Assembly: GCA_030386295.1 (NCBI GenBank)
Contig: JANQAO010000005.1
Coordinates: 1-52,627, forward strand
Reading direction: 5' to 3'
DNA: 52,627 nucleotides
Source of the DNA: Candidatus Persebacteraceae bacterium Df01
GTDB lineage: Bacteria; Pseudomonadota; Gammaproteobacteria; Tethybacterales; Persebacteraceae
A program made the position numbers and the translations under genes. The first letter of the stretch is position 1. Each line of letters begins with the position of its first letter. Below the pieces are notes generated by a model that searched no databases, was not told where the DNA came from, and was given only the letters and a program-made list of their open reading frames with translations. Below, piece after piece: positions 1 through 7,396 of the stretch.

Positions 1-3000
1 TCACATCGTCAAACGGGATCGGTAGGCTTTGCGTCAATCAGCGGTGGAGAATTAGGATCAAACCAACTGACAGTAGATAGTCCTCTGTTTACGGTAGCTG
101 CAGATGGAGAGATATTGCTGACGATTGCGGTAGCAGGACCAGCGACACTAACGGGAACGATAGAAGTATTCTTACCTTCAGATGTTTTGGGAGATGACAG
201 TGCGTCTTATGAATTTTTGGTAACGGTATTGGATAACGTTGACATTGGTGGAAATTCAGCTGAGTTGACGGTTGGTAACAGTTATGAAGGAGAGTTGACG
301 GTATTGACTGCATCAGGTGGTGCAGGAAATTATTCGGTGTTGCTATCTGATGAAACGAATTTTGCCGGAACGGTAGTCGGTGAAGATGTATTACTAACGA
401 TATTGAGTGTAGGAACATCATCGCCGAGTACGTTAGCGTTGACGATTGAGGTTTTAGACGGAGCGATACCGCCAGTGACGGCGACATCAGAGATAACCAT
501 TTATGTATTGCCAACAGTAAGTTTTTCTCAACCAATTAATTTAGTGCAATTGCGACACCAATACACGGGTGCAGTACTGACGTTGACAGCGACGGGAGGA
601 AACGAAATATATCAACACACTGTGTTGAATTCATTATTTACTGCCGGGACTGTGCAGATGAGTTTAGTGACTATATCCTTAACGGGAACTGTATCTGGAC
701 CAACGACGCTGATAGTGACGGTACAAACGGAAGATACATTTTCGTTTCCGGTAACTGCGGTAGCGGCGGTGACGATAGAAATATTCTCGCAATTGACGCA
801 CACAGTGGCTACGGTACCGGTGGTGGAGAACGAGGTCTCAGTGGTAGTGACACTTTCGGCCATTGGTGGCAGTGGTAATTATGAACACGAGGTAGTGTCA
901 ACAACGCTCTTTACGGTGATAGATGCTCAAAGTCAATTGGCGAAGGTATCATTAACAGTAGGACAATCGCCACAGACACTGACGGTGACAGTGCAAACTA
1001 AAGATACGCAGACTGATGTGACGGTAACAAGTGAAGTATTTATTACCGTGTTGGGACGACCAGACCTGCCAGCACACACTCTGACGGCGACAATATTGGG
1101 TGATGTGAATGTGATAGCAGCGTCATTGTCACCGATTGGCGGTAGCGGTAACTACAGCGTGTCGGGTGTACATTCACAATTCACAATAAACGCAACTACC
1201 GGCGTGGTAGAAGTAACGGTCGCACAATCGTTGGTGCTTACGCACGATATTGTGCTTACGTTGGCGGATCTGGCTTATTCGAGTGATGCTTTAAAAAGGA
1301 CAATCACTTTGAAATTGGAGGTGCCGGACAGAGATCGGATGTTAATCATTGGCGGCGATATAGACGGCATAAGAGATAACGTGCGTTGGTCAACGAATGG
1401 CAGCGTGTGGTTGTCGTCTAATGTGCTGACTGATAATAAAGCGCGCCCGGCGGCACTTAGCAGTGGCGGGACAGTATTCGTTATTGGCGGCTGGACAAAC
1501 ACTAGGAACTCGGGGTGGCTAGATTATTTTTCAGGCGACAACGACTGGATCCAGCAGGCGACACAATACGATGAAACTGACCCGGTAACGCGGCACGGTC
1601 ACGAGGGGTGGGTGTTAAATGGGACGATGTACATTGCGGGTGGAGAGGACTCGTCGGATGCAAACGTGGCCTTTTCCACAGACGGTCTGACGTGGACAAT
1701 ACTGACGGCTGCGGCAGATGGAGTGTCGGGTTCATCGTCGGCAGTGTCATTAAGTTTCTTGGAGCGTGAGAACTATGGCGCGGCGACGCACAATGGAACG
1801 ATGTTCCTTTTTGGTGGCAATGCTAGTACTGGCTCAGCGGCGGTGTATGAGGATATGTGGGCATCAACAAACGGTGCGGTGTGGAGGCAGATAGCAACAA
1901 GCATCCCCGCTGGGACAGGGGCGAATTCTCAATTGGTATCTCACAATGGTTTGTTATATCTGATTGGCGGCAGTAGCAGTGATATCGACGAGGCTAACGA
2001 CATGGTGTGGAGTTCATCTGACGGAGTGAGCTGGACAGAGAGTCCGGCAATGGTTGATAGCTTGTATGCTCACAGTGCGCTGTCATTCAATGGAACACTG
2101 TATGCGATGGGGCGTGACAGCAATACAGTGGCAAGAGTGAACGCCATGGCAGCAGATGGCAGTTGGATTAGGGTAACGGCAGTGGCGGGATACGAATTGT
2201 CGGATGTTGCTTTTGGCAATGAAGCGGTGTATTTACTAAATGAGCAAGAAGCAACACTGACTTCTCCGTCAGCGGTTACGGTGGCGAATAGCCTGTTTAT
2301 CGTGCCGCTAAGTGGTGAGGTAGTGTTGACGCTATCAGTGAGTGGTGGCCGTGGTGGCCCGTATGTGCAGACGGGTGCAACTGTGCAGAGTTTGATTGGT
2401 AGCGAGGGAGTACTGACAATAGCAGTGACACCGTCTGCGCTTACGCAAACACTAATGCTGACGATAGCGGATGCAAACCATGCAAATACAGAGACGACAG
2501 TGGAGGTTAACTTATTGCCTCTAGTGTCACTGATAAGCGATAACGGCATTATGATTTCACTTGAAGGACTAAATAATGTTGCCATATTGACGCTAACGCT
2601 CGGCGGCGGCGGCGGCGGTCCTTATAGTGTGTCGGGCGAACATCCGCAATTCGACATTGGCAGCGACGGAGTTATTTCTGTAGTAATGATGCAAACAGGG
2701 AGTGAGACTCACAGTATTGTGTTGACACTTGTGGATAATAATTTTGTCACGTCGCCGGCTACGGTGACTTTGATTTTGAATCCGCAACAACTGGCAGTTC
2801 TCAATGCAAATGATTTGTTAGTAGCAGTGGAGGCAAATATATTAGGTGAGACGGAAGGTCTTTTTGTAACGGTGTCAGTAATTGGCGGCAGTGGTGATTA
2901 TGCAATCTCCGAAGATAGTTCGCTTTTTGGTGTTGACAATAACGGTGTGATGTCATTGACGGCGTTGGTAACAATAACGGGAACGCATACGGCAGTGCTA

Positions 3001-5187
3001 ACTGTACAAGATACGAAAATTCCTGGCGATATTATCGTTTCGGTATTTTTTGAGATACCGGATGAGGTGCGGATGATTTTGGTGGGATCTGATATATCTG
3101 AAAGCCAAAGAGATGTACGCTGGTCTACCAATGGTAGCATTTGGATAAAGCAGGATGAAGCGTTAGATACCGGTGAGTCAGCTGCCCGAGACGGCGCTGG
3201 TTTTGTTCTTAACGACACGTTGTTTATTGCGTCGTATTTGGATGATGTGGGTAAATACCAATATTCTTCTGACAGCGGTGTTTCATGGACGAGCGGCTCA
3301 CTTCCTGGTGCTCTGGATACAAGCTCTGGATTTGAGGCCGAGGTTATTAATAATGTGGCATACCTGTTTGGTTCTACTTCTAATGACAGTGGAGTATATC
3401 GTTCTACCAACGGCACCGATTGGACAAAATTGACTGTAAGTGGCATTACCGATGCAGCATTTGATCGCCAATATCATGCGGTCGCCGTACACAACGGCAG
3501 TATTTATATGATTGGGGGAGTAGACAGTGGCAATCGTAATGTATGGCGTTCTAGTGATGGGATCAACTGGGTTCAAGTAGCGACTTCGTTGCCATCTGGT
3601 ACGGGGATAAACATGGATGTGGTGTCATACGCCGATAGTTTGTATTTGATAGGGGGTGATGACAGTGACCATGAAAATGAAACGTCACAGGTGTGGGTTT
3701 CAAATGATGGAGCGTCTTGGTCTTCATATTCGGCACTACCCTCTGATATAACATCGCCGCATGGTTATGTACGCGGCGGTAGTTTGTATGTAGTGGGTAC
3801 TGATGGGAGTACAAACAGCGGCCATGTATTTGTACTAGAGGCTAATGATGAGTGGAGAGAATTAACAATATCTTCGGTACCATCAGGCACAGATGATTTG
3901 GGCGATTTGGGTGATTTGGGTATACCAATAATATACGATCCTTACGTTACCAAATCGGGACCGTTGTTTTCGTCAACGCCGCCAGTGAATTTGGAAAGCT
4001 CCAATATTGTTACTGCACACATTTTGGGTGAAGAAGATGGTGCTGCGTTTACACTGGAGTTGAGCGGCGGCAGCACCCGTGGAAATTATCGAGTTTTGGG
4101 TTCACACTCGCAATTTGCTATGAGTGGCGTTGTGATTTCGGTTACGGCGTTACAAACCATTACGACAACGCACACGTTAGTGCTGACGTTGCAAGATGCG
4201 GGGCATCCGGATACTGTTTTGGATAGTATTGTCACGGTGACAGTAGATGTGCCCGACAGGGCGCGAATGTTATTGCATGGCGGCGCGAAGAGCTCAGGTC
4301 GTAATCGTTGGTCAGCCAATGGCAAGGTTTGGGTGGAACGACATCTTGCTTTTTCGGGTATGCGGGCAGGAGTTGGCTTTCATCATGAGGGAAGCGTGAT
4401 TCTTGTGGGCGGTTTGGTCGAAGGTTCAAGTGATGCTTATATCAACAGCATTGCTCGTTCTCCAGATTCCTTCGGCACGAACTGGATACAAACTCCCGAT
4501 ACTGCTGTGGCATCTCGCGCAGGTATGAAAGGCGCGATACTTAACGGAACACTATATTTTTCTGGTGGTGAATTGAACAGTGATAACAATAATATAAAAT
4601 CTTCGACTGACGGAGTTAATTGGACGACTCTGACAGTAGAGGCTTATGAGCAAGGTGCAACAACCCCCACAACGGGAATAAATCAAGACTTCCTTGAACG
4701 GGGCTACCATGCCATGGTGGAACACAACAACACTTTATTCATTATTGGCGGGGATCAGAACCAAGATGTGTGGTCATCCACTAACGGCACTGTGTGGAAT
4801 CAAGTTACGACAGCGCTACCGGCAGAAACGGGTTACTACCCGGCTGTGGCATCGCACAACGGCTTTTTGTATATGATGGCAGGGGATCCAAGTAGTAATA
4901 GCGGTGCTAGTAATAAGGCATGGCGCTCAGATGACGGAGCGGAATGGGAAGAGCTGGGTGATTTAGGTACTGATGGGGTGAGATGGGCGTCGGCATTTTC
5001 ACTTGCTGGCTCATTGTACGTGGTTGCGGCGATTAGTGAGAGCAGCCGCGGGATTGTTTTTGTTTTGAATGAAGATGGCACTACGTGGAGAGAACTAACT
5101 TCAACAGCGTTTAATTTAGAAACTGGCGTTGCTACTTTTAACAAAATAGGACTTGATATGATACCGGTGTTGTATGATCCCTACTAG
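1..5187 (+). CDS. Giant mosaic surface/secreted protein with cadherin-like and kelch repeats (5' end outside window)
   Basis: The reading frame is open from the first base, so the start and any signal peptide lie upstream; about 1,728 residues are visible. Two kinds of unit alternate. Beta-sandwich units of about 85-90 residues carry a GGSGNY-like turn, then a LFTV-like strand and a TLTVxVxD strand, and look cadherin/Ig-like. Five lie before the first kelch block, three before the second and one before the third. Three kelch-type beta-propeller blocks begin at a PDRxRM or PDEVRM motif (near 1321, 3058 and 4249) and repeat LYxxGG and VWxSxDGxxW motifs. No catalytic residues are evident. Such architecture is typical of adhesins or extracellular binding proteins; that role is inferred. 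The TAG at 5185-5187 follows a DPY motif that in module 2 continues into a linker, so this stop may be a secondary truncation. Confidence 0.85.
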   Translation, partial: SHRQTGSVGFASISGGELGSNQLTVDSPLFTVAADGEILLTIAVAGPATLTGTIEVFLPSDVLGDDSASYEFLVTVLDNVDIGGNSAELTVGNSYEGELTVLTASGGAGNYSVLLSDETNFAGTVVGEDVLLTILSVGTSSPSTLALTIEVLDGAIPPVTATSEITIYVLPTVSFSQPINLVQLRHQYTGAVLTLTATGGNEIYQHTVLNSLFTAGTVQMSLVTISLTGTVSGPTTLIVTVQTEDTFSFPVTAVAAVTIEIFSQLTHTVATVPVVENEVSVVVTLSAIGGSGNYEHEVVSTTLFTVIDAQSQLAKVSLTVGQSPQTLTVTVQTKDTQTDVTVTSEVFITVLGRPDLPAHTLTATILGDVNVIAASLSPIGGSGNYSVSGVHSQFTINATTGVVEVTVAQSLVLTHDIVLTLADLAYSSDALKRTITLKLEVPDRDRMLIIGGDIDGIRDNVRWSTNGSVWLSSNVLTDNKARPAALSSGGTVFVIGGWTNTRNSGWLDYFSGDNDWIQQATQYDETDPVTRHGHEGWVLNGTMYIAGGEDSSDANVAFSTDGLTWTILTAAADGVSGSSSAVSLSFLERENYGAATHNGTMFLFGGNASTGSAAVYEDMWASTNGAVWRQIATSIPAGTGANSQLVSHNGLLYLIGGSSSDIDEANDMVWSSSDGVSWTESPAMVDSLYAHSALSFNGTLYAMGRDSNTVARVNAMAADGSWIRVTAVAGYELSDVAFGNEAVYLLNEQEATLTSPSAVTVANSLFIVPLSGEVVLTLSVSGGRGGPYVQTGATVQSLIGSEGVLTIAVTPSALTQTLMLTIADANHANTETTVEVNLLPLVSLISDNGIMISLEGLNNVAILTLTLGGGGGGPYSVSGEHPQFDIGSDGVISVVMMQTGSETHSIVLTLVDNNFVTSPATVTLILNPQQLAVLNANDLLVAVEANILGETEGLFVTVSVIGGSGDYAISEDSSLFGVDNNGVMSLTALVTITGTHTAVLTVQDTKIPGDIIVSVFFEIPDEVRMILVGSDISESQRDVRWSTNGSIWIKQDEALDTGESAARDGAGFVLNDTLFIASYLDDVGKYQYSSDSGVSWTSGSLPGALDTSSGFEAEVINNVAYLFGSTSNDSGVYRSTNGTDWTKLTVSGITDAAFDRQYHAVAVHNGSIYMIGGVDSGNRNVWRSSDGINWVQVATSLPSGTGINMDVVSYADSLYLIGGDDSDHENETSQVWVSNDGASWSSYSALPSDITSPHGYVRGGSLYVVGTDGSTNSGHVFVLEANDEWRELTISSVPSGTDDLGDLGDLGIPIIYDPYVTKSGPLFSSTPPVNLESSNIVTAHILGEEDGAAFTLELSGGSTRGNYRVLGSHSQFAMSGVVISVTALQTITTTHTLVLTLQDAGHPDTVLDSIVTVTVDVPDRARMLLHGGAKSSGRNRWSANGKVWVERHLAFSGMRAGVGFHHEGSVILVGGLVEGSSDAYINSIARSPDSFGTNWIQTPDTAVASRAGMKGAILNGTLYFSGGELNSDNNNIKSSTDGVNWTTLTVEAYEQGATTPTTGINQDFLERGYHAMVEHNNTLFIIGGDQNQDVWSSTNGTVWNQVTTALPAETGYYPAVASHNGFLYMMAGDPSSNSGASNKAWRSDDGAEWEELGDLGTDGVRWASAFSLAGSLYVVAAISESSRGIVFVLNEDGTTWRELTSTAFNLETGVATFNKIGLDMIPVLYDPY
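2601..2618 (+). repeat. CGG trinucleotide tract (six units)
   Basis: Six consecutive CGG triplets inside the surface gene encode a glycine run in the turn of a cadherin-like unit, where related units have GGSGNY. Unit length is three, so copy-number changes would keep the frame. Confidence 0.9.
3895..3921 (+). repeat. Three tandem 9-base units in surface gene
   Basis: Three copies of GATTTGGGY encode (Asp-Leu-Gly)x3 at the end of the second kelch block. The equivalent position in the third block has a single LGDLG, so the copy number differs between modules. The frame is preserved. Confidence 0.85.
4111..4556 (+). repeat. Long direct repeat, copy A (module 3)
   Basis: This stretch of the third cadherin-kelch module is highly similar at DNA level to 5352-5800, offset by about 1,244 bases. 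It includes long identical runs, for example around the PDRARM codons and around the ASRAGM codons. Similarity at DNA level, not only protein level, points to a recent duplication or ongoing gene conversion. Confidence 0.85.
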
Positions 5188-6460
5188 CCGGGAGCTCCTT
5201 TGGCTGTGGGTACACTATCAATGGTGAAGCTGGATAATATGCTTCTTCAACGATAAGGGAATCTATTTTGGGCAACAGAGACGGTGCCGTGCTGACACTG
5301 ACTCTGAAAGGTGGTAGCAACGATTCATATTTAGTGCGTGGCTCACACCCGCAATTTGCTGTTGGTAGTGGCGGTGTGATTTCGGTTACGGCGTTACAAA
5401 CCATTCCGACAACACACACATTGGTGCTGACTTTGGATGATGGGCGTTATCCGAATTCCGGTTCGTACAATGTTGTTACGGTGATGATAGATGTGCCCGA
5501 CAGGGCGCGAATGTTATTGCTTGGCGGCGCGAGTAGCCCAGGACGTAATCGTTGGTCAACCAATGGCACGATTTGGGTGGAACAAGATAATGCTTTTTCG
5601 AGTTTTCGGGCAGGAGCTAGCTTTTATCATGAGGGAAGCGTGGTTGTTGTGGGCGGTTTGTCCGGCAATTCAGGTAATGATTATATCGACAGAATTACTC
5701 GTTCTTCAGATGCCTTAGGCACGAACTGGATACAAACTTCCGATACTGCTGTGGCATCTCGCGCAGGTATGGAAGGCGCGGTACTTAACGGAACACTATA
5801 ATTATGCGTCCAGCGGACGGAATTAATCGGCAAGCGCAGGGCCACTGGCGTGACGGAAACAGCAATGAGTCATGAGTTTTTGCGCCGAGGGAATTTTGGT
5901 GCGGTATTTCTTAACGGCACGATGTACATTATGGGCGGGATAAAGTACGCAAGCAATGGAGCTTTCTCCGGTGCTGCGGATAATGATTTTGATATGGTAA
6001 TCGGTGCTTTGGTAGATGACTTGTGGTGGTCAACTGATGGTAGAACTTGGACACAGGTAGACCAAAGTGAATTGATTGCTGAGCAACCTGACGATTTCGG
6101 TCGTGAAAATGGCTTTCGTTTGGGTCCCCCAAGACTTGTAGCAGCCCATGGGGCGGATTGTATTTTATTCAAGGTGTGCAAGGTGGAACGGATATCGTAT
6201 GGCGTTCAGCGGGCGGGGGAGCAAGCTGGGTAAGTGTGGCCGCTCACATGCCATACATTATTAACCCGCCGATGAATGTCCTATCATTTGGCGGCAATCT
6301 GTATATTATGGGAGGAGATGGTTTCGGTTCGACAGATTTTATAGATATTACACAAACAGGTGACAGTTGGAGTAGTTAAATTTATGTAAATACGCAATCG
6401 CTTTCTGATTTGCTGGACAGGCAGCGCAGCAGCGAAATTGTGTTTGATATAGACCCTTAA
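5188..6460 (+). pseudogene. Decayed fourth cadherin-kelch module of the surface gene
   Basis: Downstream of the TAG, coding similarity to the preceding modules continues but is broken. A linker and cadherin-like unit resume in another frame (from about 5190, with a TAA at 5235), then a kelch block with PDRARM near 5494. Further damage is a TAA at 5799-5801, apparent frame jumping and loss of about 15 codons near 5800-5870, a frameshift near 6150-6160, and a TAA at 6377-6379 before a last in-frame tail ending VFDIDP at 6458-6460. That tail resembles the IPVLYDPY end of module 3 and may be the original C-terminus. The three longest open pieces are 5268-5801, 5850-6233 and 6158-6379. I read the whole as one decayed module, not three genes. 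An alternative is a silent cassette that recombines with the intact gene. Confidence 0.8.
5352..5800 (+). repeat. Long direct repeat, copy B (decayed module 4)
   Basis: Partner of the repeat at 4111-4556. The similarity stops abruptly at the TATA following the GGAACAC shared by both copies, exactly where the reading frame meets a TAA. This suggests a deletion breakpoint at that position. Confidence 0.8.
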
Positions 6461-6604
6461 AAAAAGTTGGCCGTGATGTTTCTGTAAAATTTGATTTGAA
6501 TAGATTATGAGCAATTGGCATTGTGCTTGCTAAACCTTACTAAGACAAAATTTGCTAACTCAGCATTGAAGTATTTTTTCGTCACCAGATGGCAAGGCTA
6601 TTTT
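6461..6604. other. Intergenic gap between surface pseudogene and znuB
   Basis: This 144-base convergent spacer is AT-rich. I see no ORF, RNA gene or convincing hairpin terminator for either side. Confidence 0.6.
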
Positions 6605-7396
6605 TTATTGACTTCGTTGTGATAGAGGAAAGGTAACGGCGAACATTAGCGCCGCAGCACTCACAATAGAAGGACCCGCGGGAGTGTCAATGTGCAGCGA
6701 CATGGTTAAACCGCCAATAACTGCTAGCACTCCTACCGCCGCTGCTATCGCAGCCATGCTTGTTGGCGATTTTGCGAATTGTCGTGCCGTTGCCGCTGGA
6801 ATGATTAACAACGAAGTAATAAGTAAAGCGCCGACAATGCGAATGGAAATTGCCACTACTATCGTCATCAGCAGCATTAATAATAAATTAGCGTGTAGCG
6901 GGTTTATTCCTTCGGATGCAGCTAAATCTTCGTGAATAGCGGTCAGAGTAAGCATTTGCCAGTTGGCAATGAGCAATGTAAGAACGGCGATGCCGCCTGC
7001 ATACACCCACAACAGTTGGTTGTTGCTGACAACAAGAATGTCACCAAAAAGATAGCCGTATAAGCGTACAGGTGGACCGTCAAAAAAACTGAATGCCATG
7101 ATTCCTGCAGCCAGTGCTGAATGCGCTAGGACGCCAAGTAGCGTGTCGGCGGCTAGTGTGCGCTGTTGGCGCAACCACACCAGTAGCCCAGAAAAAATTG
7201 CGCATACTGCTACCACACCGATTGTGCTGCCCACACCGGTTATCAATCCCAGAGCTACACCGAGTAAGGCGCTGTGTGAGAGAGAGTCGCCAAAATATGC
7301 CATGCGACGCCAGACCACAAAGCAGCCGAGTACCCCAGCGATTACTGCTACTCCGATACCTGCGGCTAGTGCACGAAGAATGAAAGCTTCTGTCAT
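6605..7396 (-). CDS. znuB: Zinc ABC transporter, inner-membrane permease
   Basis: Forms the membrane channel of the high-affinity Zn(II) importer, energised by ZnuC and fed by the periplasmic binding protein ZnuA. The 263-residue product is a chain of hydrophobic helices of the ABC-3 family, of the usual length. It begins with a periplasm-facing helix followed by GCFVVWRRMAYFGDSLSHSA, the family hallmark in the second helix. Its ATG overlaps the znuC stop in an ATGA, which indicates translational coupling in the leftward zur-znuC-znuB unit. No Shine-Dalgarno sequence is visible. The family also transports Mn or Fe in some bacteria; the adjacent Zur regulator and His-rich ZnuA argue for zinc. 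Confidence 0.93.
   Translation of the reverse strand: MTEAFILRALAAGIGVAVIAGVLGCFVVWRRMAYFGDSLSHSALLGVALGLITGVGSTIGVVAVCAIFSGLLVWLRQQRTLAADTLLGVLAHSALAAGIMAFSFFDGPPVRLYGYLFGDILVVSNNQLLWVYAGGIAVLTLLIANWQMLTLTAIHEDLAASEGINPLHANLLLMLLMTIVVAISIRIVGALLITSLLIIPAATARQFAKSPTSMAAIAAAVGVLAVIGGLTMSLHIDTPAGPSIVSAAALMFAVTFPLSQRSQ

Follow-up and report, generated by a model that had tools for sequence, protein, structure and literature searches.

A large bacterial gene ends with a TAG at 5185-5187, and the DNA beyond this stop resembles a further module of the same protein. This arrangement raises the question whether the downstream region is the remnant of a longer gene, a displaced alternative end, a silent donor of sequence, or a product of faulty assembly. 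The window (i.e., the whole stretch of DNA analysed) is an entire contig of 52,627 bases from a 1.53 Mb genome assembled in five contigs and 98% complete.

The gene and its intact modules

The left end of the contig falls inside the gene. A search of the ends of the other four contigs did not reveal its missing 5′ part, which therefore lies in an assembly gap. The translated features are as follows.

1..5187, + strand: large gene, open 3′ part of 1728 codons plus TAG, with its 5′ end off the contig
1066..2238, + strand: module 1, cadherin-like repeat and kelch propeller
2806..3948, + strand: module 2, cadherin-like repeat and kelch propeller
3949..5187, + strand: module 3, the last translated, with DPY and then TAG at its end

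The gene is made up of cadherin-like repeats and three modules, in each of which a cadherin-like repeat is followed by a kelch beta-propeller; the term "cadherin-like" is a reading from the sequence, as Pfam gave no cadherin match. The product is a large, repetitive, probably surface-exposed protein. Modules 1 to 3 score above the curated cut-offs for kelch (Pfam PF01344 and PF24681), and the predicted model of module 3 (mean pLDDT 66, middling) resembles kelch domains whose structures have been solved (E near 1e-12). On these motifs and this predicted fold, modules 1 to 3 qualify as kelch beta-propellers, which differ from kelch domains in general in that a single, very long bacterial polypeptide carries them in tandem with cadherin-like repeats. 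Close to its end, module 2 contains a few successive 9-base repeats (3895-3921, encoding DLGDLGDLG), a place where the in-frame length could vary.

The boundary of module 3 is exactly where the surviving protein stops. The next gene, at 7396-6605 on the − strand, is convergent and encodes an ABC transporter permease, of the ZnuB type as judged by its sequence and its neighbours. No RNA family and no tRNA was found in the window.

No orthologue was found in named genomes or viral contigs, and the three genomes of the family contain no close one. One of these three (G002) carries giant kelch/cadherin-like genes with low similarity to the gene discussed here, among them a reading frame at least about 5970 codons long that extends over contigs C39, C114, and C21 (L115, L113, and L116), which overlap by 129 and 141 identical bases. 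This frame is still open at the 5′ contig end and is followed by genes resembling accB and accC. Among 369 genomes of the class, a search at E below 1e-10 returned one distant match besides the window's own genome. In a genome of another family of the same class (G051, loci L006-L030), many short kelch genes are present, with 27 matches that are mostly about 350-400 codons long. A search of the literature for kelch/cadherin proteins or giant genes in bacteria yielded nothing.

A probable decayed module beyond the stop

The region downstream of the TAG can be divided as follows.

5188..5240, + strand: possible remains of an inter-module linker, homology marginal
5241..5801, + strand: front half of module 4, containing the cadherin-like part and blades 1-3; frame 3 stays open until TAA 5799-5801
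5802..5850, + strand: rest of blade 3, shortened and frame-broken
5850..6150, + strand: blade 4 and start of blade 5, frame 3, weak kelch motif
6151..6379, + strand: blades 5-6, frame 2, ended by TAA 6377-6379
6380..6460, + strand: possible former C-terminal tail, homology not established

The original prediction held that homology to the module continues past the TAG in shifting frames and is interrupted by TAA codons at 5235, 5799, and 6377. The three stops are present at these positions, and the homology is clear. With the gene product as query against 5188-6620, tblastn matched 5241-6059 in frame 3 (E 3e-77) and gave a single frame 2 match at 6152-6376 (E 1.7e-12), while blastn aligned 5340-5803 with 4099-4559 of module 3 (84.7% identity, E 6e-149). 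In a frameshift-aware alignment, the module 3 protein covers 5241-6370 with a score of 625, compared with 475-565 for pairs of intact modules. Alignment with the protein of either module 3 or module 1 requires a stop, TAA 5799, and one change of frame, at about 6151-6157. When the module 2 protein is used, the stop is replaced by frame changes around 5796-5828, and another falls at 6154. Intact modules aligned with each other in the same way need neither a stop nor a frame change.

The remnant is nearly full-length, comprising the cadherin-like part and some of each of the six blades, and it lies directly downstream of module 3 in the strand and order of the other modules. Its best kelch motif, a single one with E 0.003, is below the cut-off. 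The stretch 5241-5798 has no internal stop or frameshift and counts against decay, though weakly, the probability of finding no stop there being 0.13-0.38. The region thus combines clear homology with a frame broken by lesions that are absent from its intact homologues, as is the case for a pseudogene remnant. A terminator scan gave two weak + strand matches within module 4; the total of matches was somewhat above chance and is not interpretable.

These features resemble those of truncated modular genes followed by a pseudogene of their last domain, in which a homologous domain with stops and frame changes lies past the stop in the original strand and order. Here, however, the remnant also bears a sharply bounded tract in common with the preceding module (see below). 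Of the two origins proposed in the original prediction, a truncated ancestral protein is the best reading, given a near-complete module directly downstream with matching strand and order. Module loss is favoured because the homology is in the right order and on the right strand, the lesions are absent from alignments between intact modules, and the genome has no other module copy. We consider it likely that the gene formerly ran through a fourth, C-terminal cadherin-like/kelch module, of which 5241-6376, and perhaps the DNA up to 6460, remains. Very probably the gene was once longer.

The two ends of the remnant are less distinct. A damaged copy of the inter-module linker had been proposed to follow the stop. 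As DNA its likeness is marginal (p=0.08 alone, p=0.0085 with the DPY codons included), and as protein it is unrecognisable, scoring 16 against a mean of 16.2 for shuffled sequences (p=0.52). A linker so faintly recognisable weakens the case for a single frame once crossing 5187. The proposed resemblance of the tail to the end of the preceding module is poorly supported: as DNA, 6377-6460 does not resemble the end of module 2 or of module 3 (p=0.64-0.72), and as protein it reaches p=0.03 at best. Since the tail does not reliably match the end of a module, TAA 6377 may be module 4's own old stop instead of a lesion.

With respect to the age of the decay, a profile built from modules 1 and 2 scores the front half of module 4 at 106.6 bits and module 3 at 104.6. 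A front half that fits the family as well as module 3 does is not one that decayed long ago, and on this comparison the decay of module 4 looks recent.

A tract shared by modules 3 and 4

Within the remnant, one further feature was absent from the original prediction.

5340..5803, + strand: sharply delimited tract with 85% identity to module 3 (4099-4559), a sign of past exchange

Between modules 3 and 4, dS is 0.10 inside the tract, 1.9 just before it, and saturated or near 1.3 after it, the values for the flanks coming from short stretches of 31-74 codons. At the right edge, sliding identity drops from 0.96 to about 0.35. A dS of 0.10 between near-saturated flanks, together with the abrupt edges, indicates that modules 3 and 4 copied or exchanged sequence well after they had arisen. 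Giant genes in a genome of the same family show comparable patchy similarity between modules. Moreover, only a few bases separate the right edge from TAA 5799, and directly beyond this edge blade 3 has lost part of its length; in this one sequence, the position of the edge suggests that the exchange may itself have broken module 4.

The differences that have accumulated in the tract are mostly amino acid changing. First codon positions change most between 4099-4559 and 5340-5803, and 7 of the 57 changed codons are synonymous, compared with 14.1 +/- 3.4 in a neutral simulation (P=0.019). The dN/dS ratio is 1.7, with bootstrap limits of 1.01-3.6. Purifying selection, on these counts, is not what kept the two tracts alike. 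Mild diversifying selection on the tract is possible, a suggestion that comes from one pair of sequences and one of several tests made.

The tract also gives rise to a different account of the locus, in which module 4 is a displaced C-terminus. Recombination across the shared front-half tract would have set a new back half before the old one, the orphaned end would then have decayed, and the new end would have brought the TAG at 5185 with it as its stop. There is precedent in the rhs genes, in which displaced C-terminal tips with dissociated ends are found (PMC2935791). As in that system, an expressed gene is followed by a loose, presumably untranslated end whose front part is common to the present end: copies of one front half (4099-4559 and 5340-5803) are followed by two different back halves, module 3 ends cleanly, and homology of the linker across the TAG is marginal. 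In contrast to rhs, only one loose end is present here, both ends are halves of one propeller module and homologous to each other, and homology extends to both sides of the shared part. This homology persists at the ordinary divergence between modules, as expected for tandem modules, and the genome has no other loose ends or copies. Displacement of this kind is therefore unlikely. A broader version, in which the tract of about 460 bases serves as the recombination arm by which the giant kelch/cadherin-like family swaps its C-terminal half-propeller, with the remnant as an alternative end that was discarded and with diversifying selection on the exchanged part, is conceivable and would have to be called decidedly speculative.

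Because the stretch is repetitive and the genome comes from a metagenome, a sequencing or assembly error deserves consideration, the more so as the contig begins within the gene and one of the frame changes in module 4 sits at a run of four Gs. However, the stops, the frame changes, and the shortened blade 3 are packed into about 1.2 kb, whereas the reading frame stays open over the gene's 1728 codons and in the contig's other long genes. Moreover, a difference of 15% across the tract is too large for a chimera of near-identical repeats. An artefact is accordingly unlikely as the source of the broken module.

That the remnant is a silent cassette from which gene conversion copies sequence into the expressed module, as happens in antigenic variation (the second origin in the original prediction), would fit the indicated exchange between modules 3 and 4 and the predominance of amino acid changes in the tract, but it is hardly credible as a working system: instead of several near-identical donor copies, the whole genome holds four module copies only (modules 1-3 and the remnant) with no silent copies elsewhere, the one candidate donor is itself broken, and its best stretch is still 15% away from module 3, which argues against recent transfer. 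Diversification by a diversity-generating retroelement was considered as well and rejected, as the genome has no reverse transcriptase and the differences are not adenine-biased.

Probable loss of a C-terminal module

Under the favoured reading, loss of the fourth module, modules 3 and 4 would have exchanged the stretch of roughly 460 bases before or during the death of module 4, and the right edge of this stretch may be the event that broke it. A stop just past module 3 would end translation at a clean domain boundary, and the remainder, no longer translated, would collect damage. The present protein, short of one propeller, would most likely act as a long binding protein that is secreted or sits on the surface; its location and binding are suggested by the domain types alone.

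By itself the case is an unremarkable one of gene decay, in which neighbouring units may have swapped sequence before the last one died. The locus would be a case in which a giant modular gene of a bacterium has lost a complete domain at a clean boundary, and it retains a trace of exchange between tandem modules, the process that alters the length and content of such genes.
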